A stretch of DNA of 64,000 nucleotides from Phycisphaerae bacterium (lineage in GTDB: Bacteria; Planctomycetota; Phycisphaerae; UBA1845; UTPLA1): contig JAHBXN010000001.1 of NCBI GenBank assembly GCA_019636475.1, positions 744,001-808,000 of the forward strand, given 5' to 3'. Both the position numbers and the translations under genes were made by a program. The notes below the pieces were generated by a model, which saw only the letters and a list, made by a program, of their open reading frames with translations, was not told where the DNA came from and made no database searches. How positions within the stretch are numbered: position 1 is the first letter of the stretch; every line of letters begins with the position of its first letter. Below are positions 9,919 through 29,258 of this stretch, piece after piece.

Positions 9919-10653
9919 TCAACCCATCGAAATGCTTCCTCCGCCGAAGGCGAGTTGTTGCTGCGGGTCTGGAGCCGGTTGAATCAACTTCTCAACCAAA
10001 GCACGGGGAAGCAACGGTTGCGTATTGCGTATCCGTGGTTGTATGTCTGAGCAGCGAATCACGGCAGCTTGCGTGGAAACGTTGAACCTCCGTCGCAATG
10101 CAGACAGGAACCGCCGCCAGAGTGCCTCGGAGTCTCCCGCTGGCTCCATCAGCGCTGCTATGCATTCGGAGCGGCTCGTCCGTCGGTTGTCGCAAAGCTG
10201 CAGGAGTTCGCGTTCTAGCAACACGAGCGGCATCAGGAAAGCAGCAGCGAAGCGATTCGCCTCACGCTCGAATTGATTACGGGCGCTGAATCCGTAGTCG
10301 AGTGTGTCCTTAAACGTACGGGCCACCTTGGAGTGAAGTATGATGTGGCCGAGTTCGTGTGCCGCAGTGAACCGACAACGCCCCTCGTTCGTCAGCACCT
10401 GTTGGTCAATGAGGATCTCCGGTTTTGTTGGATAGGCCGCGCCCAACACGTCAGAGCCGAGCCGCGAAAGGTCGGCGAAGCCGAACTTGATTCGTAACGG
10501 ACCCTCGATCCAATCCTCGACGGGAATCGGAAGCGGCAGTGTCTCCAGCTTCCGGCGCTTGCGGCACCTCTCAAGGCACTCCCACGCACGGCGGTCCACC
10601 TGGCGAGAACCCCATCGTGGCTCGAAATAGCGGTAGCTTAGCGCGGGTCGCAT
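9919..10653 (-). CDS. ImmA/IrrE-family metallopeptidase (element regulator)
   Basis: The 244-residue protein has HELGH at residues 99-103 and FEREANRFAAAFLMP downstream, the standard ImmA/IrrE zinc site. It follows the XRE regulator gene by 3 bp in the same direction. In known elements the ImmA partner cleaves the ImmR repressor after DNA damage or mating cues, releasing int/xis expression. The neighbouring operator and xis-int operon make that role likely here. Confidence 0.9.
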   Translation of the reverse strand: MRPALSYRYFEPRWGSRQVDRRAWECLERCRKRRKLETLPLPIPVEDWIEGPLRIKFGFADLSRLGSDVLGAAYPTKPEILIDQQVLTNEGRCRFTAAHELGHIILHSKVARTFKDTLDYGFSARNQFEREANRFAAAFLMPLVLLERELLQLCDNRRTSRSECIAALMEPAGDSEALWRRFLSALRRRFNVSTQAAVIRCSDIQPRIRNTQPLLPRALVEKLIQPAPDPQQQLAFGGGSISMG

Positions 10654-10656
10654 CGA

Positions 10657-11052
10657 CTATTTCGCCTTTCGTGAATCCTTCTGCGCTGATAGACGCTGAG
10701 CTTCTTCGATCAGCGCGTCCCACTGGTCACGTGTGAGTCGACGAGCATTTCGCAGAAGTGCCGGCACCTTTTCAGCCGTCATAGCATCCTGGGTGGCTAC
10801 TTCCGAGACAATCGCGTCGGGACGTGCCCATCCAGCCCGCAGCGTTGACTCGGGAATGCCATATGCTCCGCTGACTCGCCTGAGAAGGTCCTCGGACGGA
10901 GTGCGTCGCCCAAGCTCCAGATCTGTAAGGTGGGCTGGAGCGATATCGAGAATCTTGGCCATCTCGCGTAATCCCTTGTTCAGGCTCTCGACGCGAGTTC
11001 GGCGAAGCAACTCGCCCACCGGCTCCGGACTGGATCGTGCGTGTCGTGGCAT
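10657..11052 (-). CDS. XRE-family transcriptional regulator
   Basis: A 131-residue protein with an N-terminal helix-turn-helix (LREMAKILDIAPAHLTDLEL) and a C-terminal helical tail. ATG 11052 is preferred over the upstream in-frame ATG at 11106 because the upstream bases contain a promoter-like stretch and GTACxGTAC motifs. Partnered with the ImmA-type peptidase 3 bp downstream; the likely repressor of the xis-int operon and of itself. Confidence 0.85.
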   Translation of the reverse strand: MPRHARSSPEPVGELLRRTRVESLNKGLREMAKILDIAPAHLTDLELGRRTPSEDLLRRVSGAYGIPESTLRAGWARPDAIVSEVATQDAMTAEKVPALLRNARRLTRDQWDALIEEAQRLSAQKDSRKAK

Positions 11053-11100
11053 TGGCTTCTCACGTACTGTACGCTTATATGCTAACAACCGATCCGGAGA
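11053..11100 (-). promoter_or_regulatory. XRE gene promoter/operator region
   Basis: On the minus strand a TTGACT (-35-like) lies 16 bp from TAGCAT (-10-like), followed by TATAAGCGTACAGTACG, which includes GTACAGTAC and one TGTACGC half-site also found in the palindrome at 9875-9894. Suggests autoregulation. Exact promoter elements are uncertain. Confidence 0.4.
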
Positions 11101-11139
11101 AGTCAAGCCTCTGGAACCGGAATTCTTTTCCCAGCCTGG

Positions 11140-11766
11140 TTACTCGTGTCGCATCGCCGCGAACGGCAATCTTGGACTCGCCGGGGACCGCCGGTAGCGA
11201 TAGCGCCGCAACGAGCGGAACGCTACGGCGACGTAACCAGCGGACACAAGGACGTACCCGTTGTAAGCCATCGCAAGTGGCGGCGGGACGTTGGTTTGCG
11301 TCTGGAACAGGAAAGCACATGCCGCAAAAGCGATTAGGCAGGCGCTCGCAACGGCCATGATGGCGGCCGCTCCGGTTCGGCCCGCAGTAACAGCCTGACG
11401 GTTCGGATGCTGAGATTGAAAGACGAGCAACTCTTCCCCAGCAATCTGGTTGACGTGCCGCTCGATTTCGTCGATTCGTCGCAGGTGGTCCTCTTTGGAC
11501 CGTGCATGGCCGAACGTGGTAGCTGCAATCCACGCCAGGCAGGCTGGGGCGCCAGCTAGGAATAGAAGCTGGGTCTCCTTCGGCACCACGGGGACGCTGC
11601 CCAAAACGACACCGAGCAACCCACCAGCAGCAGGAACACGTTGGTCCATCGCGCGAAGGCGAAAAAGAAGCAGCTGATAAAGTGCCCTGTACTCCTCAAC
11701 AAGGACTGCGATTCGTTCAGATTCTGTGAGCCCGGCTGTTCGGCCAGACCGAAATCCATGCTCCAT
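11140..11766 (-). CDS. Four-TM membrane protein of unknown function
   Basis: A 208-residue protein from the ATG at 11766. An N-terminal amphipathic part (LVEEYRALYQLLLFRLRAMDQR) precedes hydrophobic segments in two pairs: around GGLLGVVLGSVPVV and LLFLAGAPACLAWIAATT, then AAIMAVASACLIAFAACAF and YNGYVLVSAGYVAVAF, with a charged coiled linker (HLRRIDEIERHVNQI) between. The layout resembles small sensor-less integral membrane proteins near defence genes, but no family is recognised. Divergent from the cupin gene. Confidence 0.65.
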   Translation of the reverse strand: MEHGFRSGRTAGLTESERIAVLVEEYRALYQLLLFRLRAMDQRVPAAGGLLGVVLGSVPVVPKETQLLFLAGAPACLAWIAATTFGHARSKEDHLRRIDEIERHVNQIAGEELLVFQSQHPNRQAVTAGRTGAAAIMAVASACLIAFAACAFLFQTQTNVPPPLAMAYNGYVLVSAGYVAVAFRSLRRYRYRRSPASPRLPFAAMRHE

Positions 11767-11855
11767 ACCCCTTGACGCCCGGCCGATGTACCGTACAAGT
11801 ACCAAACTTCTTGCCGGACCGCGCCCGGAGAGTCAAGCCGAAAGGAGGTGCGGAC

Positions 11856-12545
11856 ATGTTGCAGACCATTTCCTCAACGATCAGTGCGGGTTTGCTGGGA
11901 GGCATTTCAGGGCACGAAAGCTTGCGACTGCTCCTAGACCTCGGTCGCGCTGCCATTCAGGAGGTGGCGCCTCCGAAGGGTGGAGTGTGGGCGACAACCC
12001 GGTCGCTCAAGCTCGGATTTCCTGAGACGGATGGACCGCTTGTTCGCGAAATGGTGGCGCTCGCCGAGAACGAGTTTCCGCTCGTGCTGAAGGCGCCTTT
12101 CGAGCAGACGAACAGCATCGCTGGTGCCGTGTGGTCGGCACAGGAGCTACTCGACGAGTGCAGGGATGACGGGTTTGCCAAGCTTCGATTCGACCCCGGC
12201 ACGCTCGACCTGCCGATGCATATGCACGAGTTCTCCGACCGCTTCATCGTCGTGCTTGACGGCGAAGGGTTGTTCCACATTTCAAGCGAGCCGCTGGAGC
12301 GGTTCACCGGAGAGCGGATTCGGTCTATTCCCGTTAAGGCAGGCGATGCGCTGACGTTTACGCGCGGGCTGATGCACACGTTTAGCGCTGCTGAAGAGGG
12401 ATTGCTGCTGCTTTCTTATCACGCACCGCTTGTAGAGCTTGACGACCCGCGACAATACACGCTGCCGAAGCTGATCTGGACTCCGCGCAAACTGCAGAGG
12501 ATCTGTCAGGAATCGCAAGGTGCCAGCAAGTCGGATGTACGGTAG
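11856..12545 (+). CDS. Cupin-domain protein
   Basis: ATG 11856 follows an excellent AAAGGAGGT and gives 229 residues. The cupin core is visible as LDLPMHMHEFSDRFIVVLDG (H-x-H and E of motif 1) and FTRGLMHTFSAAEEG (H of motif 2), so a metal-binding beta-barrel is likely. The N-terminal 100 residues are not recognised. Substrate unknown; could be a sensor or dioxygenase-like enzyme. It precedes the 1.5-kb structured region in the same orientation. Confidence 0.8.
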   Translation: MLQTISSTISAGLLGGISGHESLRLLLDLGRAAIQEVAPPKGGVWATTRSLKLGFPETDGPLVREMVALAENEFPLVLKAPFEQTNSIAGAVWSAQELLDECRDDGFAKLRFDPGTLDLPMHMHEFSDRFIVVLDGEGLFHISSEPLERFTGERIRSIPVKAGDALTFTRGLMHTFSAAEEGLLLLSYHAPLVELDDPRQYTLPKLIWTPRKLQRICQESQGASKSDVR

Positions 12546-12552
12546 GTTCGAG

Positions 12553-14017
12553 CCGCGAGCTTTGGCTCGTGGTCGTCAGTGACGGAAATCACGTTGCGCG
12601 ACACCGTTCGGATTGGCGACACAACCCGTTCAACTCGGCCTTACCAACCGAGCCAAGGGGGCGGATTTCACCACCCGCCAATGTGTCGGCCCGTAGAGCT
12701 GGATGCCATGAGAATGGCTCGTCCAGATCGACGGAGGCTCGTCGGCGCAAATCCTTGACCACCAATCAAGGTCAATTCCGACGTTCTATCCGATGACGTG
12801 GCGGGGAGGCGGGGCGACGGAGACAGACCCTTGTCGAGTTGCGCTTATTTTGCGTCTCGATGAGGGCTGCGGTCGTCAAAGGCGGTGAGCTTCGGCGCAA
12901 GTCGAAGCAAATCCCCCCGCGGGGTTCGGACCACAGTTTCGTTTATGCGGGACAATTCGGGTGCAAGACCCGTGAGGTTCGTTCAACGCTGGCCGGCGTG
13001 GGGAGCTTCTGCGTCCGCGAGGACGGGAACCGGGCCCTTGATCAGGCTCGGCGATCGGGTGAAAGAAGCCCGACGGTGAAAAGCTCAACCATGAAAGGCC
13101 CGCAAGGGCTTGCCGGTGAATTTCAACCTGAGACGGTGCTGAACCGCGAAAGATCCAGGTCGAAGGGTAGGCGGGTGCTTCTTGTTTCGGCCCGCAGAAA
13201 TCACGAGCGATTCGCTCGTGGAAACGATGCCACCGCGGGAGCGGTGCGCGTACGACCTGGCTTGGAGGGATAACACCCTCTAGCGACGTGACGGGTTGAA
13301 TGAAGACGATCGCTAATCCGGGAAGGACTGAAGCGGCCGGTGTGGTGACCGGTGCTCGGCATGATCAGCTGAGTGATTCAAATGCTTCAGTCCGGGAGTG
13401 TGCCTTGAGTAGAAGCGGCCGGGAGGCCGGCGAAGCGGCTGCAAGGCAGTGGCCGTTCGTTCGCGCCGGGGCTGGTAACCTCGGCATGGAGCGACGACGA
13501 AAGAGGCGACGGGCATGAACCCGTCCGAATGAGTGTTCTGACGAGGCGTTCCGCCTCGCAACCTTTGGCTAGGAACAACGTGGCCCCACGCGGCTGGTCG
13601 TGGTGGACCGGCTGCCTGGGGCACACGCATTTGATGACGACACTCGAGGTACGTCTTGAGGGTGCCTCGGGTGCGTCAGGTTCCTGCTTTGGGCTGTTCT
13701 ATTATTAGCCGCGTACAACTTAGAAACAAGTCGCGCGCGGCGCGACAGCCGTAAGCAATCGGCGAAGGCAGGCGTGCGGCATGGCTCCGATTTCGAGCCG
13801 TGCGGTCCATGCTTGCTGGTCCTGTATGCGTGGGTGGCGGTGGAGCGTGAATCGGTTCGCGGGCGATAGCGGGCCGGCCGTAAGGCCGGACAATATGAGC
13901 ACCCGCAAGTCCGCGACGATTCGCAGGCTCCCGCACCGGTCGGTACAGGAAGCCGAAGTCACGGTTGCAATGCGATTTCGCATAACGGCCTTGGGGATTG
14001 TGCCGTGAACAATCCCC
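12553..14017 (+). ncRNA. Large structured RNA candidate (about 1.5 kb)
   Basis: No convincing coding frame, but hairpins throughout. Examples: 12958-12972 (CGGGT/ACCCG); 13012-13025 with GCGA loop; 13096-13111 with GCAA loop; 13202-13220; 13231-13246 with GGGA loop; 13265-13280; a perfect 10-bp long-range helix, 13325-13334 with 13384-13393, enclosing a second hairpin; 13416-13429 with GGGA loop; 13508-13525; 13542-13558; 13779-13803 (9 bp, one G-U); 13874-13889 with GTAA loop; 13993-14017 (9 bp). At least five tetraloops are GNRA, which is characteristic of folded RNAs with tertiary contacts. Strand is inferred from the flanking plus-strand genes and from GNRA loops reading correctly on plus. 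It may be one RNA or several. Size and complexity recall GOLLD/ROOL-type RNAs or a ribozyme; no identity is claimed. Confidence 0.7.
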
Positions 14018-14049
14018 ACCTATCGGGCAGTATCAGGCGTCGGCGGGAC

Positions 14050-14709
14050 ATGCAGTATCGGTGTAGGGCGACTTCGGTGGACGGGTTCATTCAGCAGGTG
14101 GCGGTTGCTTACGTCGCCCGCGGCTATTGGTTCTACGTGTCGGGGCGCATCCCCCCGCACAAGGATCCCGAGCTTGTTGATCAGAAACTCATCGCCCGTT
14201 ATGGCGTCGCCGTTTCACAGAAGGAACGCTGCCGACGAAAACGCGGCGGCCTGGCGAATATGCAGTATATCCGTCATGAACGGTTCTTCCTGCTCATGGC
14301 GACGCACGGCAAACACGAGTTTTTTGATGAAGAAGATGGGCAGGTGAGGGATGCACGGCGGGTACCCATCCGATACGCGGGCTACACAATTTCGCACCGC
14401 AATCGTCGCGTGTGCGTGAGAATCGCGGTTGATGAATACGCGCGACTCAAGGCCCACTTCTTGGAATTGGCCTGCCGACGCTCGGAAATCACACTCGCCG
14501 TAGAGTTCGCCCGAATCCGGATGCAGCCGTACGCACCGATCCGCGCACAAGTGTTAACCATTTGGCGAGCCGTGAACCGTACCCGTCGTGCGGCCGGGTA
14601 CGACGCTGTTCCGATCGAAGCGGTTCCGTGGAAGCGTTCGATTGTTCGACCTTTCGCCATAGCATTTTCGAACACTACAAAAACGGGCAGGGGTTGCTCT
14701 GGGGAGTGA
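14050..14709 (+). CDS. Unrecognised basic protein next to structured RNA
   Basis: From ATG 14050, 219 residues, rich in R and K and aromatic residues. Recognisable only by its own pattern: opening MQYRCRATSVDGFIQQVAVA, then GYWFYVSGRIPPHKDP, YIRHERFFLLMATHGKHEFF and a C-terminal LTIWRAVNRTRRAAGY helix. The final 17 residues overlap the 3' end of gajB on the other strand by 35 bp and may be readthrough past a lost stop. Position directly after the large structured region suggests an RNA-binding or RNA-processing partner; that is inference only. Confidence 0.72.
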   Translation: MQYRCRATSVDGFIQQVAVAYVARGYWFYVSGRIPPHKDPELVDQKLIARYGVAVSQKERCRRKRGGLANMQYIRHERFFLLMATHGKHEFFDEEDGQVRDARRVPIRYAGYTISHRNRRVCVRIAVDEYARLKAHFLELACRRSEITLAVEFARIRMQPYAPIRAQVLTIWRAVNRTRRAAGYDAVPIEAVPWKRSIVRPFAIAFSNTTKTGRGCSGE

Positions 14710-16390
14710 GGAGCGTAGTCCGCGTCATTGCGCGGGTCACCGCCACCCTCAGTGACAGGCGGGCCTGCGCAATCTCTCGCGCCGATGCCTCAGCTCGCAC
14801 GATGCGCCCCTGATATGCGCCCTCGTAGACGATCACTTCGTCGAATTCCTTACCTTTCGACTTATGAATCGTCATTACGTTTACGCCCTTCCACACGCGG
14901 GTCGATGCGGAGAAATGCTCCTGTAACAGGGCATCATGCACGGCTTCAGCGGCCCCAGGATAACCGCGATTGCCGCGCCACAGGTCGCCCAACCGTGCGC
15001 GCAATAGCGCCCCCTTGTGAAGCAATCTGAGGTACTTAGCATCCTCCGCGACCTGTTGGATGTGCGCGACTTCCGAGTCGGCAAGAAGCTGACGAACCGC
15101 GAGCCAATCAGCTTCGGGGTCACCTGTTAACGTCATCCCTTTGCGGGCGACGGCGATACGTTGGCAATCTGCGATCAGAGCGAGCCGAGTGCTGCCCCTC
15201 GCAGCACCGGTCTCCAGATACGTCGAAAGAGCGTCGGTCAGCTTTAGGTCGTTCTTCGTTGGTGGTGTCGTACCACGACGCCCCCGAATGTGGGCACAGA
15301 GTTCACGAATGAGTGTGGCGGCCGTGTAAGCGATATCCACACCTGAATCAAGCAGTCCTGCAATGAGCTCAGCTGCGATGGCCGGCCCTTCTGTGTCCAG
15401 GGCCACGTCATGGCTGAGGGCTGGGAACCCGTCAGCTTCAGCGGATAGGTAGTCTGAGACGGTGAGCATGAACCGTTTGCTTGGAACGAGCACTGCAATC
15501 GACCAGTCGCCCGGCTTACTAGCGATGCATCGTCTCATAGCGTGAATTAGCGCTGCCTTCACCGCAAAGTGCTGGCTGCGGTCGCGATAGAATCCATAAG
15601 AAACAACTGTCACATCCGAATAGCGACTGGACTTGTTTGCCCCGGTGAGCAGGTCATTCCCGAAGTTGACGATGTCAGTTCCATTGCTCCGGTGGTTCTC
15701 ACCGCTGAAGTCAAACTGTGCAGGAGCGTATGCATTGATGAAGTCGCCTATGCGTGCGGGGTCGGCTCCACGAAACTCGTAGATGCGCTGCTCGGGATCG
15801 GCGAGGGCGATCAAACGGCTATGCTGCCCGAGTGATTGAATCAGACGCCACTCGTCGGCGTTCGTATCTTGGAACTCATCGAGAATGATCATAGGGTATG
15901 AGCTACAGACAATGTGCGCAAGGGCGCAGCTTCGCGTCAAAAGCTCCGCTGCCGTCGTCGCAAACAGATCAAAGTGCAGTAGGCCCTCCTGGTCGCGCAA
16001 TCTAAGCATCTCACCCTTCCGGGATTCCGCCGAAACGTCGGCGAGACGCGAAGCAGCAGTCGGTGGAGGAAGGAGAGTACACCTCCGTTGCGTTAAGAGA
16101 TAACCGTGGCTCCGAATGAGGGCCCAAGCAAATCCATGATACGTGTTGATTTCGATGCACGATCGCGTAGGCGTCGATATCAACGTCCGAGCTTGTTCCG
16201 CAACTCGGGCGACAGTCGCCCGAGCAAAGCTGAGAAAGAGAATGCGCTGGGCTCGCTGAAGCTGTCGCAGTTCGATTTCGTGCTGCGCCTTGCATAGTGC
16301 GACGAATGTCTTCCCGCAACCCGGTCCTCCCATCGCCAGAGCATGCCCGTTCGATTCAACGAAACGCCGTTTGTCGATTGAGAGTTCCAC
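14675..16390 (-). CDS. gajB: GajB: UvrD-like helicase of Gabija
   Basis: About 571 residues from a GTG at 16390 (VELSIDKRRFVESNG), 16 bp after the gajA stop; the frame stays open further upstream inside gajA, so the start is uncertain. Superfamily I helicase motifs are in order: GGPGCGKT (Walker A), LDEFQDTN (motif II), DPEQRIYEFRGA (motif III), IHKSKGKEFDEVIV (motif V) and VAVTRAMTRTTL (motif VI). Gabija GajB senses nucleotide or DNA-end changes and licenses GajA cleavage of phage DNA. The OLD-type gajA immediately upstream in the same direction completes the system. Confidence 0.88.
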   Translation of the reverse strand: MELSIDKRRFVESNGHALAMGGPGCGKTFVALCKAQHEIELRQLQRAQRILFLSFARATVARVAEQARTLISTPTRSCIEINTYHGFAWALIRSHGYLLTQRRCTLLPPPTAASRLADVSAESRKGEMLRLRDQEGLLHFDLFATTAAELLTRSCALAHIVCSSYPMIILDEFQDTNADEWRLIQSLGQHSRLIALADPEQRIYEFRGADPARIGDFINAYAPAQFDFSGENHRSNGTDIVNFGNDLLTGANKSSRYSDVTVVSYGFYRDRSQHFAVKAALIHAMRRCIASKPGDWSIAVLVPSKRFMLTVSDYLSAEADGFPALSHDVALDTEGPAIAAELIAGLLDSGVDIAYTAATLIRELCAHIRGRRGTTPPTKNDLKLTDALSTYLETGAARGSTRLALIADCQRIAVARKGMTLTGDPEADWLAVRQLLADSEVAHIQQVAEDAKYLRLLHKGALLRARLGDLWRGNRGYPGAAEAVHDALLQEHFSASTRVWKGVNVMTIHKSKGKEFDEVIVYEGAYQGRIVRAEASAREIAQARLSLRVAVTRAMTRTTLLTPQSNPCPFL

Positions 16391-16406
16391 TCTTGCGTCG
16401 ATTCCA

Positions 16407-18212
16407 CTACTGCTCGGGGCCTTCCGCCACTGGGGGTGCGTTCTGCTCGTTGACGTCGACCGGCGCGGGCGGAGCAACAATCGCCCGAATCGATCGTAAG
16501 GTGTCGACGATGAAGGGCGGCATCTCATCCAGTACACACACTGCGAGTAGGTCCGCCGCACCGCTGTCGCCTTTGGACCAGATTAGGTATTCGCGCAAAG
16601 AGCTCCGCAAATCGGCTAGCGGCATCGCGTCGCTCGGCGTACGGTCGGCAAGATGGGCTGGCCACGCCCCCTCGGCGACAAGACCGCTAGCGAAGCGCCT
16701 GAGAGCCGTCTCTGCAACACCATTGAGCAAGACGTCTTCGAAGCCAGCCTCGGGGGCTTCAAATGCGTGGTCTACGGCCGCCTCAATGGCGGCCTTGTTG
16801 GCGGCGCCCTGTCGGTCGAATGCGGCGAATACGGCTTTTCCGAGTCTTCTGAAGTGGTTGCCGAGCTGCGTGATTTGGGAATCCGTCTGAGCGTTCACGA
16901 CTGCGATGCCCATCGCTTCCAAAGTTGTGAATTGGTCCGGATGCAGTTCATTCAGCCGACGAGCTGCGGCAGGGAATGCGTCGTATTCGGTACGCCCTTC
17001 CGTGATCAGGACTCGCCTGGCCAACAGCGCTTCGCAGAAACGAACACGAAACTCAGTACGATAGGTCTTCGGCTTAACAGCTGGTGGATAGGTCGCAGGA
17101 ATGCCCGTCAGTTTGCCCGACTCGCGCCGGATGACGAGTACCTGTTCAGGTGGGAATTCCTCCAACACGTACGGCGAATGTGACGTGAATATCGCCTGAG
17201 CCGACTTGCTCCTGACGTTGTCGATGATGCACTTTTGTGCGTGCGGTGGCAGCGCGATTTCCGGTTCCTCCATCGCGAAGATGACGTTTTGCTTGAGTTC
17301 CGCGATTTGGGATAGTAGTGCAAGGACAAGCGTATTGATCGTTCCGGTCCCCTGATGCTGAAACGGCGCCGCATGGTCTGAACCATCCTCTTGCTTCGCT
17401 CCGCTGCTCATGAATACCGTGAGCGTGCGTCGCAAATTCTCCCGCGTAAGGTCGGAAACGCGCATGTGCGGATTTTCGGCCCATTCGGATGGGACAAACG
17501 CGCGAACGGCCGTTTGAACCGTTGATAGCGTGTCGCTGATGCCGAGTTCGGGCTTGTCGGCGACGGGAAGGTGGCGAAGCTGTTCTAGGACATCCTCCCA
17601 CATCTGCAGACGCTTCTCCTGAAGTCGGAGAATAATGTCGAGCAGCGACCCGCGCTCAAGGCTGAGCGCTCGCGATCCAGTACGATGCGTCCGCAGAAGC
17701 AAAAAACCGCACAAGCGTTTGTCCGAAGTTCGGAACGGCGTGCGGCTCCCATCTTCGAGCGTGGGGGACATGAAATACGTGGCCCCGGAAAAGTCGTCCT
17801 CCTCCTCGTCATATTGCCCGACGAATTTGACCTGAAGCGCGGGAAGGACCGTGGGATCATCCGTTCTTTCGGGTGGAGGACCTTCCAATAACTGGATCGC
17901 GACAGTGTCCCACCACTCCAGGTGGTCACGAAAGTGAAGCTTCTGCTCGTCCGAGAGGTCGATGATAATGACCTCAACTTGAATCTCGATCGCCGGGCCA
18001 TCCTTGTTGAGATAGCGGCTAGCATAGAAATCGTGCTCGTCGACTACTGGGCGCCGGGACAGTCGCTCCGGGCCTAGGACAAGATCTATCGCTTCGAGGA
18101 CGGTTGACTTTCCGCTGTTGTTATCGCCGACCAGCGCGGTATGTCCATTGAAGTGAAGCTCTCCTGACGCAACACCCCGAAAGTTCTGAATGCGAATGCG
18201 CGCGATTTTCAT
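16407..18212 (-). CDS. gajA: GajA: OLD-family ATPase/TOPRIM nuclease of Gabija
   Basis: The 601-residue protein starts MKIARIRIQNFRGV with Walker A GDNNSGKST at 29-37, an ABC-type Walker B region (FAMEEPEIALPPHAQ), and a C-terminal TOPRIM domain with LITEGRTEYDAF (catalytic E) and FAAFDRQGA. This is the GajA layout: ATPase plus TOPRIM endonuclease, length close to the usual 570-600. The GajB helicase gene follows. In Gabija the GajA tetramer nicks phage DNA when nucleotide pools fall. Complete, no visible damage. Confidence 0.9.
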   Translation of the reverse strand: MKIARIRIQNFRGVASGELHFNGHTALVGDNNSGKSTVLEAIDLVLGPERLSRRPVVDEHDFYASRYLNKDGPAIEIQVEVIIIDLSDEQKLHFRDHLEWWDTVAIQLLEGPPPERTDDPTVLPALQVKFVGQYDEEEDDFSGATYFMSPTLEDGSRTPFRTSDKRLCGFLLLRTHRTGSRALSLERGSLLDIILRLQEKRLQMWEDVLEQLRHLPVADKPELGISDTLSTVQTAVRAFVPSEWAENPHMRVSDLTRENLRRTLTVFMSSGAKQEDGSDHAAPFQHQGTGTINTLVLALLSQIAELKQNVIFAMEEPEIALPPHAQKCIIDNVRSKSAQAIFTSHSPYVLEEFPPEQVLVIRRESGKLTGIPATYPPAVKPKTYRTEFRVRFCEALLARRVLITEGRTEYDAFPAAARRLNELHPDQFTTLEAMGIAVVNAQTDSQITQLGNHFRRLGKAVFAAFDRQGAANKAAIEAAVDHAFEAPEAGFEDVLLNGVAETALRRFASGLVAEGAWPAHLADRTPSDAMPLADLRSSLREYLIWSKGDSGAADLLAVCVLDEMPPFIVDTLRSIRAIVAPPAPVDVNEQNAPPVAEGPEQ

Positions 18213-18261: not shown

Positions 18262-21060
18262 TCAGCCGATTCCCGCTTCAATCGCAACCGCGCCCAGCAG
18301 GTTCGTCGAATAGCTGCCACGTTCTGACAGCAATCCTGCATGACTCATCTCTCGATGAAGCGCATCCCGGAACCGAGCGACAAGGACTCCTGCATCGCGC
18401 GTATCGGGTCGGGCATCACTGGATTTCAAACCGCCAAACGAACGGACCACACGTTCAATGGCGAGAGAGCGGTCGCCGGATTCATCGAAGCCGAGTCGTA
18501 CAACTCGGTTGTCGACCTTCCCGCCGTCCGCCTGAACAATGACTCTCCAGACGGTACTCAATCCTGGCCCCGGGAGGTCGGACTCCGTTCGTGCTGATAC
18601 AAAACGCCGCTCTGCCTCAAGTTGCCGACAGCTTTCGATTAGCCGAGAAACCGCAGGATGCTCCAGGCCAAGCAACTCGACGTTTTCTTCGCGGAGAGCT
18701 TCGTCTCGGTCGGTCGTAAAGGGCGTCTCTGCTTTGTCAGGATCGATCAGAACGTATCGCGTGTCATCCTTCGACACGAACTGACCGCCAAATAGTGCAG
18801 AAGCTCGCTGCACAAACGCGACCAGTCGCCGCATGCCCTCGCCTTTGTCATCAAACTTCTGATACTCGCCAAGATTGAACTTTTCCAAGTCTTGGAAGAG
18901 CTCGAAGACCACGTGCCGTGCAAGGCTGGCGTTCGACATCGCGACTTCGAGTTCTTCTTTGGTGCGCTGAAGTGACGGATCGCGCAGGGCGTCCTGATAG
19001 AGCTTGTCGTAGCTCAATCGGCTGCCGAGTTGGCCGAGAATCTGCGAGCGCAGGTCCTCGGCAATCTGACCTTGGTCATCCACCTTGCCGAGTGCCGTGG
19101 CGATCTCGCGCAGCTTGTCCTCCAGCAAGAGGAAAATCTGCCCCTCAATCGTGTCGGCGGCGACAAGGTTGTACACCTGGGCCGTGTGTTCTTGCCCGTA
19201 GCGGTGGATGCGGCCGATACGCTGCTCTAGGTCCATCGGGTTCCACGGCAGGTCGTGGTTGAACAAGACGCGGGCGAACTGAAGGTTGATGCCCTCGCGC
19301 CCGGCGGCGGTCGTCAGCAGCACGCACGGACCGTCCGGCCGCTTGAAACGCTTCTGAGCGGCCGTCTTGGCGCCGTGGTCGCCACCTTTGAGCACCTCGA
19401 CGCGCTTGCCAGGGAATTTCCACTCAATCGCGGTACGTAGGCTGTCGATGCTCCCGAGATAGGTCGTAAAGATCACGACCTTCTCCTGCGGATTTAACTT
19501 CCAAAGCTGCTCCAGCGCGCCGAGCAATACGGTCGTCTTCGTCTCGGTTTGGGGCGGAAAGCGGTCGAGCAACTCGCGGATTCGGCGGCGCTCTTCCGGC
19601 AGAGCCACGAGCACCATGCTTGCCGCGGTCTCGTCTGTCATTGCGGCGGCGGCTTCTGAATCGTCCATCGACTCCGGTGCTTTCACGAACTCGAAGCTCT
19701 CATCGCGTTTACGGAGCAACTGCACCTTCAAGTCGGCGAGAATCTGGTCTACTTGCGCCCGACCGATTGCGTCTGCCGGAAGGCCGTGGAGATCGCGAAT
19801 CTGATCGCGGGCTTCGTCGAGAGCTCGATTTCGCCCGTCCACGTCAAGCGCCTCGTCGCGTTCGATGGCCTCTTGCAGCGTCAACATAAGCAGCCGCTTG
19901 CGAAGCGTGGCACGCACAGCCGAAAAACTGCTGGCGGCAATCTTCTGAAAGATCGTCATGACGAAGCCGAGCGCCCGGCTCTTGCCGCCAAGCTGCTCAG
20001 CGAGGGCGTAGCCCTCGTTCAAATAGTCGGACAACGCCGAGTAGAACACCTTCTCTGTGTCGCTCAGCGAAAAAGCCTCGGTATGCACCTGCCGTCGGGC
20101 AAACAGCGGTCCGCCGCGCGCGTCGCACGCATCTGCCTTCGTACGGCGGATGACGACGGCGTTGAGCCGATGCCGGTTGTCCACCATGTCCGACTCGTCC
20201 TCGAAAAGCGAGGGGTCGAGCAAGCGCACCAGCATCCAGAACCGATAGTGGTCGCCCTGATGTGGCGTGGCCGACAGGAGTAACAGGTCGCGAGAATGCT
20301 CGCGCATCGCCTCGGCGAGCTTGTAATTCTGAGTCTTGGTCGATTTGCGCCCACTCTTGTAGACGCTCAAGTGGTGAGCCTCATCGAACACGACGAGATC
20401 CCAAACCGGCGCCTCCTTGATTCGGCGAAGCCGTTGTGGGCGTTTCAGCGTGTCAATCGAAGCGATCATCCGATTGTGCTTCGCAAATGCGTTCGATTTG
20501 CGGTCGGACACGTCGCCTTCGGAGCCGAACACCTCGAAGTCGAGATTGAACACGTCGTTCAACTCGCGCCGCCAGTTCTCGACCAAGCCGGCCGGCACGA
20601 TCATGAGCGCCCGCTGCAACTCTCCGCGTGACGCCAGCTCGCGGAGTATGAGCGCAGTTTCGATGGTCTTTCCCAGCCCGACTTCGTCGGCGACCAGAAA
20701 ACGCCGTGGCCGCGCATTCGCCATTCGATGAACAAGCACGACCTGGTGCGGCAACAGGTCCACCTTCGCCGACGTGAGAACGGCCGCGCTCTCCATCAAC
20801 GGCAGCTCTTCGGCCTCAATCGCCAGCGCCAGCCGTTCAATCGCTTCCGGCGTGCCGGGCCGAAGTGATGAAAGCACCCGCTGTTCCCACGTCATCGCTC
20901 CCGCAAGCGCATCGGCCGGCACCTGTCGCTCGCCGTGCGTGCGGAAATAGACGCGGATGAAACCCGTCGGCTCGATGCCGAGCACGACGCCTTCGCCCAA
21001 CTCGCCGTGCGAAACGGGCTTCCCGACCTCGATATTTGGGTGCTCAGGAGCGCGGGGCAT
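18262..21060 (-). CDS. SNF2-family helicase of a BREX/Hma-like defence operon
   Basis: About 932 residues from ATG 21060 (MPRAPEHPNIEV). Motifs: DEVGLGKTIETALIL (Walker A region), VFDEAHH (DEAH box), LLLSATPHQGDHY (motif III) and EQRIGRIHRYGQ (motif VI). A C-terminal region of about 300 residues follows. SNF2-type ATPases occur in DISARM (DrmD), BREX variants and helicase-methylase-ATPase systems, where they move along or remodel DNA. Last gene of a run that includes the DUF1156 methylase, PglZ-like and DUF499-type genes. Its start overlaps the 166-aa gene by 17 bp. Confidence 0.88.
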   Translation of the reverse strand: MPRAPEHPNIEVGKPVSHGELGEGVVLGIEPTGFIRVYFRTHGERQVPADALAGAMTWEQRVLSSLRPGTPEAIERLALAIEAEELPLMESAAVLTSAKVDLLPHQVVLVHRMANARPRRFLVADEVGLGKTIETALILRELASRGELQRALMIVPAGLVENWRRELNDVFNLDFEVFGSEGDVSDRKSNAFAKHNRMIASIDTLKRPQRLRRIKEAPVWDLVVFDEAHHLSVYKSGRKSTKTQNYKLAEAMREHSRDLLLLSATPHQGDHYRFWMLVRLLDPSLFEDESDMVDNRHRLNAVVIRRTKADACDARGGPLFARRQVHTEAFSLSDTEKVFYSALSDYLNEGYALAEQLGGKSRALGFVMTIFQKIAASSFSAVRATLRKRLLMLTLQEAIERDEALDVDGRNRALDEARDQIRDLHGLPADAIGRAQVDQILADLKVQLLRKRDESFEFVKAPESMDDSEAAAAMTDETAASMVLVALPEERRRIRELLDRFPPQTETKTTVLLGALEQLWKLNPQEKVVIFTTYLGSIDSLRTAIEWKFPGKRVEVLKGGDHGAKTAAQKRFKRPDGPCVLLTTAAGREGINLQFARVLFNHDLPWNPMDLEQRIGRIHRYGQEHTAQVYNLVAADTIEGQIFLLLEDKLREIATALGKVDDQGQIAEDLRSQILGQLGSRLSYDKLYQDALRDPSLQRTKEELEVAMSNASLARHVVFELFQDLEKFNLGEYQKFDDKGEGMRRLVAFVQRASALFGGQFVSKDDTRYVLIDPDKAETPFTTDRDEALREENVELLGLEHPAVSRLIESCRQLEAERRFVSARTESDLPGPGLSTVWRVIVQADGGKVDNRVVRLGFDESGDRSLAIERVVRSFGGLKSSDARPDTRDAGVLVARFRDALHREMSHAGLLSERGSYSTNLLGAVAIEAGIG

Positions 21061-21544
21061 AATACCCTCCGCGAACCTTCTGGCCGGACGCACGGTCGGT
21101 GCGTACCAGTCGACGCATGTCCGTCACGGCAGAGCCGTTCCAAAGCTCGGTCGAAAGGCAGATCGTGGTATCGTCACGTCGCTTGAGATTCACCATCTCG
21201 CTTACCGGGTCTTCGATCAGTCGTCCGGGCTCGGTATTCAATCCAAAGACGAGGCCATGCTCGGGCCAGCAACTTTGAAACTCAGCGATGAGCGGGCGAA
21301 TGTACCGACGCACGAAGTCCTCCGCGTCGCTTACCGCCAGCATTTCCAGAACCGTCTCCAACCCACCAACCAATACCGTCTTTCCGCCGGTCGGGGTCGC
21401 GCTCGGCCACGACGAAAGCCAACTCAAGGCTTGCCGCAGCGGAATCAGCGCGCCTTCGGTGAGCAGCGGACCAAGCATGACCTTGTCGAAGATCACGCTC
21501 GAACCGCGCGTCAGCCACATCTTGGAATCGACAAATTCGTCCAT
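21044..21544 (-). CDS. Unknown 166-aa protein in defence operon
   Basis: Begins one base after the DUF1156 methylase stop (TAG-ATG) and overlaps the helicase start. Composition is that of a folded soluble protein, with ETVLEMLAVSDAEDFVRRYI as the clearest helical part and LGPLLTEGALIPLRQALSW near the N-terminus. No family recognised. The tight packing between methylase and helicase points to an essential accessory of this system, possibly in the position taken by DUF3780 proteins in related operons. Confidence 0.7.
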   Translation of the reverse strand: MDEFVDSKMWLTRGSSVIFDKVMLGPLLTEGALIPLRQALSWLSSWPSATPTGGKTVLVGGLETVLEMLAVSDAEDFVRRYIRPLIAEFQSCWPEHGLVFGLNTEPGRLIEDPVSEMVNLKRRDDTTICLSTELWNGSAVTDMRRLVRTDRASGQKVRGGYYAPRS

Positions 21545-24500
21545 CTACGCGGCTCCGCCTTCCGCCTGCTGCTCCAGCATCGAGAACAGCGTCATTTGCT
21601 CAGCCTCCACGCGCCGCGGCTTGCTTCGCCATGCCTCAACCAATCTGATCGCGCGAATGGCCGCCTCCTTCGCGTGCGATTCGCGTGCCGTTTCTGCGTA
21701 CCACTTCAGAATCGCATCGGTGGAGCGCTTCAGGCTGCCGGCCCAGTTATCCAACTCGCGGTCGATACTCAGCCCGCTGCTGTCGCGGGCGGCGCCGATC
21801 AGGAAGTGGGCCTGGTCGAGGTCGGTCTTCAATGCCGCCTTGCGTGTCCGGCCGCGCTGCGTGAAATACGTCATTCGCTCGTCGAGCGGCAGGGCATGCA
21901 CTTTCGTGCCGACGATGCGCGCCCAGCCGCGGGCTTGCAGGTCGTTCGGTTCCACGCCCGTACCTCGGAGCGTCTTGCTCAACTCGTCGCGGCTCATTTC
22001 GTCCCGGTCATGGAACAGGCTCAGATACAGACGCGAAGCCGGCTCACACTCGGGCGGGCGCTGCCGGGCGCCCGGCTCTGAGGCGAGCAGGTCGTCGAGC
22101 AACTGGTTGATGCCCAGCAGGGCTTCGCGCACCTGGAGCACCTGGCCTTCGCCGGTGAACACCTGGCCGTAGTGCTGGCTGTAGAACTCCAGCGACTTGC
22201 CGATCAGGATGACGCGCACGTCGGCGGCATTGAGTGCCCGGCCGTGAACGTGCTCCAGCAGCGTCTTGTAGCGGGCAGCCTCATCCTTCACCCAGCGGCG
22301 CATCTTGGCCCACGCTACCGGCTCGGGCATCTCCAGCCGCTTGCGGCAGACGTGAATGATGTCGTATTCGATCTTCTTGGAGCCGAATGCAGCGGTCTCT
22401 CCCTTCGTCTCGTCGCTGCGGATGGGATACGTCGCCTCAAGGATGAACCCGGCATTGAAGAGGGCTTCCAGCACGTCCACCCACGGTGCGTCGGCGCTGT
22501 GGTGGAATGTGAACGCCATGATGCCACCGGGCTTGAGAACGCGCGCCGATTCGGTCCAGCATGCCGTTAGAGTGTCGCAGTAGAATTGAGAAGCCGGCTC
22601 GCGCCGATATAAGGGGTTACCTTCGCCAGGCAGTAAGGTCTCGTCATGCGTGTGCTCACGAATCGTGCTGAGCCACCGCTCTTCAATAATCGGCTCCTGC
22701 TCCCATTGTTCGCGATCGTCTGGATGCTCAACGGAGTTTTGCACTGCTTCAATCGCCCGTGGTGTCCGCTCCGGCTCAAAGTATGCTCGCTCCGGCATAC
22801 CTTCGTACCACCTAAGCAACGGTAGTCGCATCCATACGTAAAAGAAGTCTGCCAGATCACCGTAGAACAAATTATTCCCAAAAGGTGGATCGGTGATCAC
22901 CATGTCAAACGCTTGGCTCTCCATTTCGCCCAATTCCGTTGACGATGCGCAAAGCAGTCGGCTTGACTCAGGCGGGACAGGGTCTTCAGTCGCGATTTTC
23001 AGCGTGCGTGGACCATGTTCATCTGGGTTGAGAACGAGTTCAGTAGGGTCGTTGCACCACTGAAGGCCGGTTAGCGCACCATCGACGCAACTGGCGAGAT
23101 TTGCACGACCAACGGAAAGCCACTGGTTGTTCTCAACCACCAGATTCTTCGGGTGGTAATTGGCATTCGCCAACATCGGAGCGAGACAATCCTGCTGGAT
23201 ATCCCAAAAACAGAACATTGACTGATGACGACTGAATTCTTGCCACGCTCCGAGCGCTTGCTCGCGAACATCAATAGGCCATCGGTCCGGTTCATGCGCA
23301 CAGATTGCTCGCATCAGCTGGCTATGGACCAAGAGTTGGCGGGAATTGAACATCTTCCACCAATGTGTGTATCCCCAGCCTCGGTTTACACCGCCGTTTG
23401 CGCGCATCATGTACGCATCCCAACATTGACTGGTGGGCCAGTATCCGGAGAGATCAGTGCTCCGTCGGGATTGCCACTCCTCCTCCGCAAGGATCAACTG
23501 CCGGACATCCTCGCTTGTCACGTCCTTGAAGAAGCGACCGCTGTAGGTATAGCCATCCGCGTTGCACGCTGGGCACAAGCATTGAAGGGCGTATGGGGCA
23601 ACAGGTGCTGTATGCCTCGTCTTGCCGACAGACGTGAGAATGTCCTGCCCGATTCCGTCCACGCCACAACGAAACGCCGATTTGCCGGGAACCGTGCCGC
23701 TTCTCGTTTCGATTACTCGCCCATCGCGAAGCGTGATGCGCGCCGGGGGCCCAAACTGTTTGCGGTCGGTCTCGATTTCGCCGTCATCGCCTGACCCTAC
23801 TTCGGATACATCGCTATCAGTTTCGTCATCCGACTCTTCGTTCGCTGTGGCGTCGTCAGCGAGCTTCACGCGGCCGCGTACCTCAATCAGTTTCAGCCCC
23901 TCCATCCGCTTGCGCCACCATCGGGCCGTCGCTTCCGGCTCCGCGCCGGCCCAGCCGCCGTATTCTCTTCCTTCGTCGTCCTTCTCGGGTGCACCGTCGA
24001 ACCACTTCGGATCGATCAGCAGGTACATGAAGACGTGCTTCGACTCGATCCCGAAATCCTTCTTCTTGATGTCGCCGACGCGCGTACTGGTCTTCGCATG
24101 TCGCGCGAGCACGCGCTTGGTCTCCTCGCCCGCGAACGCCTGACAATGTGGGCACCTGAAGCCCGGCTCCGCTTCGATGGCCGCGAGCAATCGCTCGACT
24201 CGCTGGCGCTTCTCCATCGCGGCGCCCTTGGAGTAGTCCTTCAACTCCTGGGCGAATGATTGGGTCACTTCCGTGAACGGCGTCTCGTCTTCGACGATGA
24301 CGCGCTCGGCGCCGGGCGCCATGCGTGTCTCACCGAGTTCGGCGTGAAACTGATAGCCGCACGCGGGACAGTCGATGGGCAGGTAATAGGCGGTGAGTTT
24401 CTTCTCGGCGATGACCGGCGAGCGGAAGATCGGCGTGCGGTGGCCGCAGGGCTGGCCCTGGCTGCCGGCACAAGGGCCATGCTTCGCCCAGAACGTGTAA

Positions 24501-25312
24501 ATGACTTCCGGGCCTTCCCAACGATAGTGCTTGCGGCCCTCCGGCGCAAGATTGATCGGATCGATTTCCGCCGGTGCCGGTTGGTCGGTTCGCACGTCGA
24601 TCCAACGACCTTTGTGCCCGCGCGGGCAGGTCGTTGTGTAGAAGGGCTGAATCTGCGGCTTGACCTCGGCTTCGATCTCGTCGAAGAACGCCTTGACCTG
24701 GGCCGGGTCGCTGCACGCCAACTCGTTCTTGACGATGAACCACGCGACAGGATTCAGATCAACGCCGGTGACCTTGAACCCGAGCCGGCTGCCTTCGACC
24801 AGCGTCGTGCCGCCGCCCATGAACGGGTCGAGCACGCGGAGCTTTTTGAAACTACCTGCCTTCTGATGGTTGCAGTAATAGTGGTCCCAGATCAGCTTTG
24901 CGGCCTCCTCGGGATTGTCGGGAGCCTCTGCTGACGCACCGATTAGCATGCTTTTAAATACGCTCGATGCACGTCGAGCCCACCATTTACTCATGCAGTA
25001 CACGCGCTTCCGTGCCGGACCAGAGGAGACCTCCACTTTCGCGAGCGCATTGATTGGCGCGATGGGGAAATCGACCTCAAGACACGTCTTGCGGCGATTC
25101 GGATCGGAGAAATCGGGAACCGGAAGGCGGATCGCCTTGGCGAGATTGGGCGGCTCGAAGCCGTCGGCGCCGTTCTTCTTGGACTTGCGCTTCCCGTTGG
25201 TCGCGGACTCGCCCGTGGCATTCGCCGCGCGCTCGTTCATGTTGAGCAGATTGTCCGGCTCAACGTCGATTAGCAGCGCTTGATTGGGAACGTCTCGTGG
25301 TGTCTTCGCCAT
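21545..25312 (-). CDS. DUF1156-type DNA methylase
   Basis: The 1255-residue protein has an AdoMet-binding motif (LDPFMGGGTTLVEGSRLGF) and the catalytic DPPFGNNLFYGDLADFF with the DPPF motif IV. The N-terminal part around KVYCMSKWWARRASSVFKSM is typical of DUF1156 methylases. A middle region has CPRGHKGRW, CGHRTP, CPACGY and CPHCQAF, several zinc-ribbon-like pairs, and there is an acidic spacer (SDDETDSDVSEVGSGDDGE). This modifies DNA, presumably marking host DNA as self. Central gene of the operon, followed by the PglZ-like gene upstream by 15 bp. Confidence 0.88.
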   Translation of the reverse strand: MAKTPRDVPNQALLIDVEPDNLLNMNERAANATGESATNGKRKSKKNGADGFEPPNLAKAIRLPVPDFSDPNRRKTCLEVDFPIAPINALAKVEVSSGPARKRVYCMSKWWARRASSVFKSMLIGASAEAPDNPEEAAKLIWDHYYCNHQKAGSFKKLRVLDPFMGGGTTLVEGSRLGFKVTGVDLNPVAWFIVKNELACSDPAQVKAFFDEIEAEVKPQIQPFYTTTCPRGHKGRWIDVRTDQPAPAEIDPINLAPEGRKHYRWEGPEVIYTFWAKHGPCAGSQGQPCGHRTPIFRSPVIAEKKLTAYYLPIDCPACGYQFHAELGETRMAPGAERVIVEDETPFTEVTQSFAQELKDYSKGAAMEKRQRVERLLAAIEAEPGFRCPHCQAFAGEETKRVLARHAKTSTRVGDIKKKDFGIESKHVFMYLLIDPKWFDGAPEKDDEGREYGGWAGAEPEATARWWRKRMEGLKLIEVRGRVKLADDATANEESDDETDSDVSEVGSGDDGEIETDRKQFGPPARITLRDGRVIETRSGTVPGKSAFRCGVDGIGQDILTSVGKTRHTAPVAPYALQCLCPACNADGYTYSGRFFKDVTSEDVRQLILAEEEWQSRRSTDLSGYWPTSQCWDAYMMRANGGVNRGWGYTHWWKMFNSRQLLVHSQLMRAICAHEPDRWPIDVREQALGAWQEFSRHQSMFCFWDIQQDCLAPMLANANYHPKNLVVENNQWLSVGRANLASCVDGALTGLQWCNDPTELVLNPDEHGPRTLKIATEDPVPPESSRLLCASSTELGEMESQAFDMVITDPPFGNNLFYGDLADFFYVWMRLPLLRWYEGMPERAYFEPERTPRAIEAVQNSVEHPDDREQWEQEPIIEERWLSTIREHTHDETLLPGEGNPLYRREPASQFYCDTLTACWTESARVLKPGGIMAFTFHHSADAPWVDVLEALFNAGFILEATYPIRSDETKGETAAFGSKKIEYDIIHVCRKRLEMPEPVAWAKMRRWVKDEAARYKTLLEHVHGRALNAADVRVILIGKSLEFYSQHYGQVFTGEGQVLQVREALLGINQLLDDLLASEPGARQRPPECEPASRLYLSLFHDRDEMSRDELSKTLRGTGVEPNDLQARGWARIVGTKVHALPLDERMTYFTQRGRTRKAALKTDLDQAHFLIGAARDSSGLSIDRELDNWAGSLKRSTDAILKWYAETARESHAKEAAIRAIRLVEAWRSKPRRVEAEQMTLFSMLEQQAEGGAA

Positions 25313-25327
25313 GTGCTCATGCCCCCG

Positions 25328-26290
25328 TTACAGCGCTGGCAATTCGATAAAGGGGACCGCCACCTCCAGGAGGCTCATCCCACCGTGGCAGAGGTACGGG
25401 TATCCACCCTGCACCTTCCATTTCCGCTGGCCCATCACCACGTGGTGGCCATTGTGCGTGAAGACGACGGGCGGCATGAGCCGGTGAGTCCACGCGCTCG
25501 TCGCAGGTTTGCAGCGCGACGCGCCGAAGGCGTCTTTCAGAACGGCGACAACTTCTTCATCCGTCTCGTTTGTCGCGAAGCTGCGTGATAGCGCGTAGCC
25601 GTGGTCCGACGTGATGATCAAACGCCGGCCCTGGCGGAGCGCATCGACGAATTGCCAGAAGCCGGGGCCTTGAATCGTCTGCCTTGCGACAGAATTCACC
25701 TGGTCGGGCGAGCGCTCGTGAACGTGTAGGATGTCGTCAAGCCAGGTGTGCCACACGAACACGTCGCGACGGGGCCGAATAGCGCCGACCGCGTCTTCAA
25801 ACGGATGATTGAAAACGTCGACCGCCAGATCTTGCGAATTCAAGGCAAAGCTGGCGGGCGGGGAGCCACTGGCGAGCCGAGCGCGCGACTGTGCGCCGAA
25901 AGCAGCCGCGAAGCTGTCCGTATCGGATGGAATCTCAGAGCCGGTGACGCGGATTTGCGTTGGCACGACTTGGCGTTGCTCGGCTACGGCGAGCAGGACG
26001 AACATTTCGCGCAACGAAAAGGCATCAAGGACCAGGACGGCGCGGCCGGTTGCGTTGACCGTCGGCCACCACTCACGCAATGCCTCTGATGTGCGTGGCG
26101 CGGCGCCGGGGTATTCCTGCCACAGATCCCACCCGGCCTCGGCGAGCAGCCGGTCGGGCGGAATGGTCTGGCTGTGCAGCTCCAACGGCGACGCGGTCGT
26201 CTTGGCGATGTCGCAAAGCGACGCGAAGATTTCGGTCCACGTATCTCGCGCGGTCAAATTGCCAAGAATGGTGTCCTGCCACGACCTCAT
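25328..26290 (-). CDS. PglZ-like protein
   Basis: A 320-residue protein with an alkaline-phosphatase-superfamily signature: AVLVLDAFSLREM (metal-binding D), RLIITSDHGYALSRSF (SDHG), and C-terminal YLCHGGMSLLEVAVPFIEL, as in PglZ domains of BREX and related systems. Shorter than BREX PglZ (800+ aa), so probably the catalytic domain alone. Overlaps the DUF499-type ATPase gene by 4 bp. Role in defence is known in BREX, mechanism unclear. Confidence 0.8.
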   Translation of the reverse strand: MRSWQDTILGNLTARDTWTEIFASLCDIAKTTASPLELHSQTIPPDRLLAEAGWDLWQEYPGAAPRTSEALREWWPTVNATGRAVLVLDAFSLREMFVLLAVAEQRQVVPTQIRVTGSEIPSDTDSFAAAFGAQSRARLASGSPPASFALNSQDLAVDVFNHPFEDAVGAIRPRRDVFVWHTWLDDILHVHERSPDQVNSVARQTIQGPGFWQFVDALRQGRRLIITSDHGYALSRSFATNETDEEVVAVLKDAFGASRCKPATSAWTHRLMPPVVFTHNGHHVVMGQRKWKVQGGYPYLCHGGMSLLEVAVPFIELPAL

Positions 26291-29106: not shown

Positions 29107-29258
29107 CCAGGCCCATCTCCCAGAAAAAGCCGAAACGACGCTGCGTATTAGCGCAAGTCTCTGACGGAACCGCAATTGTACGTCGGAGCACGCTCCCGTA
29201 CAGCCGGAAAGCCCGGTCGGGGGCTGTATCGCGGCGATCGACTGGCTGCCCGAAGGCG

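Follow-up and report, generated by a model that had tools for sequence, protein, structure and literature searches.

What fills the long intergenic space between a cupin gene and the gene of a small basic protein in a Phycisphaerae bacterium, and does it belong with that protein? The question is posed by positions 12550-14709 of a 64,000-nucleotide stretch of contig JAHBXN010000001.1 (hereafter the window), in which the features described below lie on the plus strand unless marked otherwise. A first-pass annotation had proposed one large structured RNA here, linked to the downstream protein and forming with it an undescribed system carried by mobile elements. The large RNA at 12550-13514 belongs to the circularly permuted (CP) group II ribozymes, which were described in 2021 (Roth et al., PMC8637638). 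The whole of 12550-14709 probably constitutes a single unit, in which this ribozyme is followed by its protein partner AcpG, likely a remnant of an intron-encoded protein (IEP). The system is not undescribed, since the RNA class and the AcpG family both appear in the 2021 paper; an RNA of known class occurs here in an arrangement that is new.

Architecture of the large RNA

The upstream gene (11772-12545) encodes a Pfam Cupin_2 protein, as first annotated, and no open reading frame (ORF) is conserved through the space (12546-14050) between it and the basic protein, again in line with the first-pass annotation. Within 12546-13560, all 39 homologues interrupt the longest plus-strand ORF (12839-13273, 144 aa), with 4.1 stops on average. 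Coding through the RNA region was rejected because the ORFs are broken in homologues. The conserved RNA begins at about 12550, its closed core extends to about 13514, and an extra conserved hairpin lies at 13993-14017.

At the gathering threshold, an Rfam search of the whole window returned a tRNA as its sole entry, and the group II match emerged with laxer filters. Under these permissive filters, RF00029, the model of group II intron domains 5 and 6 (D5, D6), matched 12694-12794 with 41.9 bits, above the family cut-off, and an E-value of 3.6e-6. D5 and D6 are thus placed 5' of domains 1 to 3 (D1-D3), which covariation locates at 12812-13508, and the order in the window is P1-P2-D5-D6-[17-nt linker]-D1-D2-D3. 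RNAalifold, run on 69 sequences, yielded the full group II architecture in window coordinates. In a 40-sequence MAFFT alignment separate from the RNAalifold set, 92.3% of the cells of the 260-pair structure were standard pairs, compared with 71.0% after shuffling and 35-43% with slid partners; the structure derives from related data, and part of this excess is therefore expected. For that reason, the compensatory changes are the stronger evidence: changes on both sides were observed in 209 of the 260 pairs, and the covariation score was 0.575, compared with 0.086-0.104 when partners were slid. The stable hairpins noted at first are therefore borne out as parts of one large structured RNA, with strong covariation over a group II architecture.

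The 5' end (12550-12613) comprises the P1 hairpin and a conserved segment with GTCGTCAG (12572-12579), conserved in homologues with otherwise different flanks. This part probably holds the transcript start; a scan for sigma-70-like promoters found none. The P2 region (12617-12688) contains two hairpins, and covariation pairs the loop of the second with a loop in D2. The 5' strand of a closing helix (12689-12694) follows, whose partner at 13509-13514 forms the 3' end of the core; 98.3% of its cells are paired, and five of its six pairs show both-side changes. The closing helix is a remnant of the base of domain 4 (D4) and, by analogy with an ordinary intron, the ends of the RNA fall where the D4 loop lies there. 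D5 (12696-12729, 34 nt) was located by RF00029 and carries the AGC triad, a UC bulge and a GAGA loop (12710-12713) that was absent from the earlier list of GNRA loops, and its helix is 98.8% paired. D6 (12730-12794) ends in a conserved UUCUA-UCCnAU and includes the predicted branch point.

Beyond the linker, D1 (12812-13320) starts from the 5' splice site GGGCGAC and is closed by the pairs 12818-12821/13317-13320, with 99.4% of cells paired. D2 (13325-13393) was delimited by covariation. Its stem is the perfect 10-bp helix 13325-13334/13384-13393 already noticed in the first-pass annotation, in which 96.7% of cells are paired and nine of ten pairs show compensatory change. The purine-rich J2/3 (13394-13400, GGGAGUG) is conserved, and D3 (13401-13508) is 96.7% paired. 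Five GNRA loops had been listed: those at 13017, 13102, 13237 and 13421 cap co-varying helices of the predicted structure, while GTAA at 13880 falls outside the conserved core. A predicted long-range pairing, 12601-12613/13523-13535, is 71% paired.

Splice sites, tertiary pairings and proposed reaction

In the window, D6 ends in UUCUA-UCCGAU. The branch point, predicted by position, is A12788, located 7 nt from the 3' splice site and invariant in the alignment, and the variable n of UCCnAU co-varies with the D5/D6 junction. The 3' splice site follows AU at 12794, and the 5' splice site GGGCG lies at 12812. The 17-nt linker between them (12795-12811) was assigned by homology to PMC8637638 and by the pairing of its last nucleotides, the intron-binding site 1 (IBS1), with the exon-binding site 1 (EBS1). 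These features fall within the class as defined in that paper, with reversed splice sites, a linker of 15-86 nt, GGGCG at the 5' site and NU at the 3' site. By pattern match, linkers in the window lineage range from about 12 to 110 nt, an approximate range, as the regular-expression list includes mis-parsed cases with an early GGGCGA.

EBS1 (13183-13188), in the D1 loop GCUUCU-NNN-UUC, was the clear best site for pairing with the linker end in a scan of D1-D3. Across 54 distinct combinations, 1.85 of the 3 variable positions pair, compared with 1.30 after permutation, and none of 10,000 permutations scored as high; in shifted registers the value drops to 1.0-1.3. A second tertiary contact joins the P2 loop 12669-12673 to the D2 loop 13343-13347. 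This helix has 88.9% of its cells paired and compensatory change in four of its five pairs, and all five pairs form in 60% of the sequences, compared with 22% after permutation. Roth et al. single out this pseudoknot as a feature peculiar to CP group II RNAs. The window RNA resembles the published ribozymes (T-large RNA, PMC8637638) in the order D5-D6-D1-D2-D3, the reversed splice sites and short linker, the GGGCG 5' site, the bulged branch A, the P2-D2 pseudoknot, the EBS-IBS pairing and a nearby AcpG gene.

In the proposed reaction, branch A12788 would attack the 5' splice site before 12812, and the freed linker end would then attack the 3' splice site after 12794. The products would be a 17-nt RNA circle (12795-12811) and a T-shaped branched RNA. 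Such a reaction has been demonstrated by others for five members of the CP class, and we infer that the window ribozyme is active in vivo.

AcpG, the protein encoded beside the ribozyme

The gene at 14050-14709 encodes a protein assigned, by profile comparison, to the AcpG family, with a predicted degenerate palm and thumb of a group II intron reverse transcriptase (RT)/maturase. It has 219 aa from the ATG at 14050, which is the conserved start, or 234 aa from the GTG at 14005. Its basic character, pointed out earlier, is evident from 40 K+R residues versus 20 D+E residues in 219 aa. A direct BLAST comparison of the window protein with Thermus AcpG gave no match. A profile comparison by hhalign of the window family A1 (34 sequences) with three Thermus AcpG sequences gave Prob 94.6 and E 6.5e-8 over 154 collinear columns, a significance reached with the three sequences and not with a single one. 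Gammaproteobacterial proteins form a bridge, with E-values of 2e-8 to the window family and 8e-11 to Thermus AcpG. Because of this profile match and the bridge, the window protein is a member of the AcpG family. Like AcpG of Thermus thermophilus pTT8 (TTHC007), which it matches along the 154 columns, it is encoded beside a CP RNA; unlike it, the Thermus protein has 259 aa, a different C-terminus and a divergently oriented gene, an orientation also reported in PMC8637638. In that paper, AcpG is presented without homology to any known class and without a functional clue.

In the window lineage, AcpG is always collinear with the RNA and lies directly 3' of it on the same strand, which is the IEP position of an ordinary group II intron. 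A covariance model identified 59 strong RNA loci (>60 bits) in 150 relatives, with canonical group II matches reaching at most 47 bits. Six of the loci run off their contigs and were set aside; among the 53 untruncated ones, AcpG follows the RNA immediately, in the same orientation, in 47, and likewise behind 47 of the 48 full-length RNAs. Of the six RNAs without AcpG, five have incomplete cores. With 47 of 53 loci paired and five of six unpaired RNAs incomplete, RNA and AcpG are kept and lost together, and the suspected RNA-protein link is confirmed. The RNA region also recurs upstream of homologues of the protein: at 93 loci, AcpG is preceded on its own strand, at a distance of 1.0-2.1 kb, by a block with P2, D5, D6 and the 5' splice site.

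Between core and gene, in the place of D4, lies the conserved hairpin 13993-14017. It usually has 8-11 bp and a loop of GCC-N(2-5)-A, and was found by regular expression in 67 of 116 loci; its upper six stem pairs (4-9) vary with compensation. By analogy with domain IVa in ordinary introns, it could be an AcpG binding site or a translation switch. The published CP group II loci (PMC8637638) differ in this respect from the window lineage, whose AcpG sits directly downstream on the same strand, behind this hairpin and in the D4 position. This fixed position and the near-perfect coupling of intact RNA with AcpG are new. Two side observations concern the pairing of RNA and gene. On Calothrix plasmid5 (locus L055, 619-762 and 2770-2904), two CP RNAs stand in tandem with a single AcpG gene, and about 11 kb ahead of the window (732672-733127 of the same contig; locus L105) there is another AcpG copy that lacks its N-terminal part and has no RNA match.

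The predicted fold was analyzed in two family members. AlphaFold2 gave a pLDDT of 91.2 and a pTM of 0.84 for the window protein, and 96.5 and 0.89 for that of Thiocystis. In Foldseek searches of the PDB, group II intron RTs ranked on top for both models (8t2s, E 2.9e-3 and 1.1e-3), the top matches of this kind having E-values of 1e-3 to 1e-2 and probabilities of 0.91-0.99. VIA-align gave Z 9.6 (8h2h) and Z 9.4 (6me0, 182 residues, 4.0 A) for the window protein, and Z 9.9 (8h2h, 184 of 202 residues, 3.6 A) and Z 9.7 (8t2r) for Thiocystis. In both lists the ten leading entries are group II-type RTs; DRT9, Prp8, retrons, telomerase and RNA-dependent RNA polymerases (RdRps) come after them, with the reservation that the absence of a fold from the entries listed does not exclude that fold. 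Model residues 1-198 match RT residues of about 102-425, corresponding to palm and thumb. In our reading of the sequences, YIRHERFF stands at the position of RT VRYADDF, FAGYSI at that of FLGYTI, and motif A reads GYWFYVxGxIP. None of the 62 AcpG sequences has the catalytic aspartates, no acidic residue being conserved at the motif A or motif C positions, and AcpG therefore cannot polymerize in the usual way.

A degenerate RT/maturase fold is thus a likely and well-supported prediction for AcpG, and a new one. The protein is not assignable as a working RT but is likely a derivative of a group II RT/maturase. Kinship with RTs is argued for by predicted fold and gene position; sequence searches alone do not reveal it. 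Like group II IEPs (8h2h, 8t2r, 6me0, GsI-IIC), AcpG has a predicted palm and thumb and a gene in the D4 position. Unlike them, it is about half the size, lacks the fingers (RT0-2), YADD, the motif A aspartate and a D or endonuclease domain, and has no significant sequence match to them.

The principal alternative accepts the RNA as a member of the published class and holds that AcpG is unrelated to IEPs, merely sharing a palm-like core and helices, and need not act on the ribozyme. Several results weigh on this side. Pfam RVT_1 and GIIM gave no match at E 10 in the 62 AcpG members, and hhalign of AcpG against 11 group II RTs gave E 0.0086 and so did not outperform a control family (0.0065), although the stretch aligned was the expected one, RT7 plus thumb. 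The Foldseek E-values are modest, and both models come from shallow alignments of one subfamily. The AcpG genes of Thermus and the gammaproteobacteria are divergent from the RNA, so that the D4 position is not universal; according to PMC8637638 AcpG is sometimes absent, and one full-length RNA in our set (genome G019) lacks it. Against this alternative, the best PDB matches of two models are specifically group II RTs, over palm and thumb and ahead of retrons, telomerase and RdRps, and the gene occupies the IEP position and accompanies intact RNA in 47 of 48 cases. We consider an unrelated AcpG unlikely.

On the best reading, the permuted ribozyme is served by AcpG as a maturase that has been reduced in size and has lost its catalytic activity. 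It is probably the missing protein of the permuted ribozymes, an RT reduced to a dead RNA-binding palm and thumb and encoded in the D4 position. Most likely AcpG descends from an IEP as its surviving remnant, which kept the palm and thumb (maturase) shape and lost the fingers and catalytic aspartates. AcpG would bind the RNA, with the hairpin that precedes its start codon as a possible first contact, comparable to domain IVa for IEPs, and this binding would help the ribozyme to fold and react, presumably to the benefit of host or element.

The plastid protein MatK is a maturase that has lost most RT function and kept its help in splicing; it retains an X domain recognizable by sequence and serves ordinary plastid introns. 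Compared with MatK, AcpG would be a bacterial case acting on a permuted ribozyme. The nature of AcpG, the lack of an intron protein with these ribozymes and the way in which so large an RNA works in cells were left open in the 2021 description (PMC8637638). The predicted maturase-like fold and the IEP-like position turn these questions into direct experiments, and suggest that the helper protein thought missing from the CP class persists in disguise. If true, AcpG would have its counterpart in Prp8, where an inactive protein with an RT fold surrounds an active site of group II origin; the bacterial protein would do so on a ribozyme that makes RNA circles instead of splicing. It would also show in nature how an RT can be reduced to a cofactor of splicing, the course proposed for Prp8 in spliceosome evolution.

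Distribution and mobile setting

The unit is patchily distributed. DNA matching the region is present in 40 of 101 related genomes, and the AcpG protein in 42 of 150, while a profile search of 199 genomes across the phylum found AcpG in three, the window genome included. A scan of 84,980 species genomes added 80 loci, in Planctomycetota, Verrucomicrobia, Acidobacteria, Nitrospira, Thiocystis, one deltaproteobacterium and Thermoleophilia. Cyanobacteria and Planococcus have related proteins on plasmids, and no AcpG relatives were found in viral contigs. Hosts beyond the phyla named in the main text of PMC8637638 are Planctomycetota, Verrucomicrobia, Acidobacteria, Nitrospira, Cyanobacteria and Thermoleophilia, which would widen the known range of the CP class by several phyla and bring in mobile elements of mesophiles. 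A covariance model (R1) built from the window lineage alone was tested on held-out RNAs beside AcpG genes. It matched two gammaproteobacterial loci (E 4e-11 and 1e-10) and Planococcus plasmid pA26H1 (E 2e-13), and gave a weak match on Thermus plasmid pTT8 (5779-5924, minus strand, E 0.01), at the site and on the strand expected from PMC8637638.

Between phyla, copies share 80-90% identity over some 2-2.5 kb and differ in their flanks, which indicates horizontal transfer of the unit. When copies with different flanks are compared in pairs, their sequences part near the AcpG stop codon and ahead of P1, but neither a terminal motif nor a target site was found at the unit ends in these pairs, and a self-mobile element with sharp ends was rejected on this ground. 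The unit resembles cargo more than a transposon, and its travel as cargo of integrative elements and plasmids is the best explanation. The setting in the window is itself an integrative element, with a tRNA-Gly and two integrase genes, Xre and ImmA-type genes and ParA/ParB; together with the plasmid copies, it upholds the earlier suggestion of carriage by mobile elements.

The neighborhood also raises the possibility of a defense or anti-competitor device, in which the EBS1-bearing branched RNA or the circle would act against foreign RNA or DNA. The unit adjoins Gabija genes and a BREX/DISARM-like cluster within the integrative element, and Roth et al. (PMC8637638) also mention defense as a possible role. 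AcpG has no PADLOC match, however, and the recurrent neighbors of the unit are ParA, integrase and Xre/ImmA genes, leaving this role rather improbable. A decaying, non-functional rearranged group II intron would be consistent with the patchy occurrence among relatives and with degenerate copies (L111, L112, L232, L233, L230), but all domains of the core, the splice sites, branch A and the tertiary pairings have been preserved in several phyla through compensatory changes, and AcpG is intact and conserved, making decay very improbable. The likeness to GOLLD or ROOL suggested in the first-pass annotation, or more broadly to OLE-type large ornate RNAs or another RNA class, fits the size, the many hairpins and the GNRA loops, and can be given practically no weight: Rfam shows no GOLLD, ROOL or OLE match at E 10 and an RF00029 group II match instead, the RNA has a group II domain 5 together with the splice sites and overall architecture, and the model R1 matches complete the refutation.

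Several further features were observed around the unit. In genome G046 (locus L229, 1372-3830), a canonical group II intron with an RT-HNH protein (YADD present) is nested inside domain 5 of a CP RNA. Upstream of the RNA in the window (9919-12545), an ImmA-type peptidase, an Xre regulator, a 221-aa putative membrane protein and the cupin form a conserved block, which stands ahead of the CP RNA at up to 9-15 loci. Directly after AcpG, on the opposite strand, lies a complete Gabija pair (14675-18212, minus; GajB E 1e-221, GajA E 9e-263), followed by a BREX/DISARM-like cluster (18262-29175, minus) of an SNF2 helicase, a large methyltransferase-like protein, a PglZ-like protein and an ATPase. In a near relative (L056), the SNF2 helicase region is about 3 kb closer to the unit, which suggests that the Gabija genes were inserted between the two. 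ParA-like genes occur near 22 loci, and the unit is carried by the planctomycete plasmid pK2D_1 (L054, 2605-2776) and the Leptolyngbya plasmid pLBX (L053, 2958-3090). The record points to a lasting tie of the unit with plasmid-type replicons, the Thermus plasmids included.
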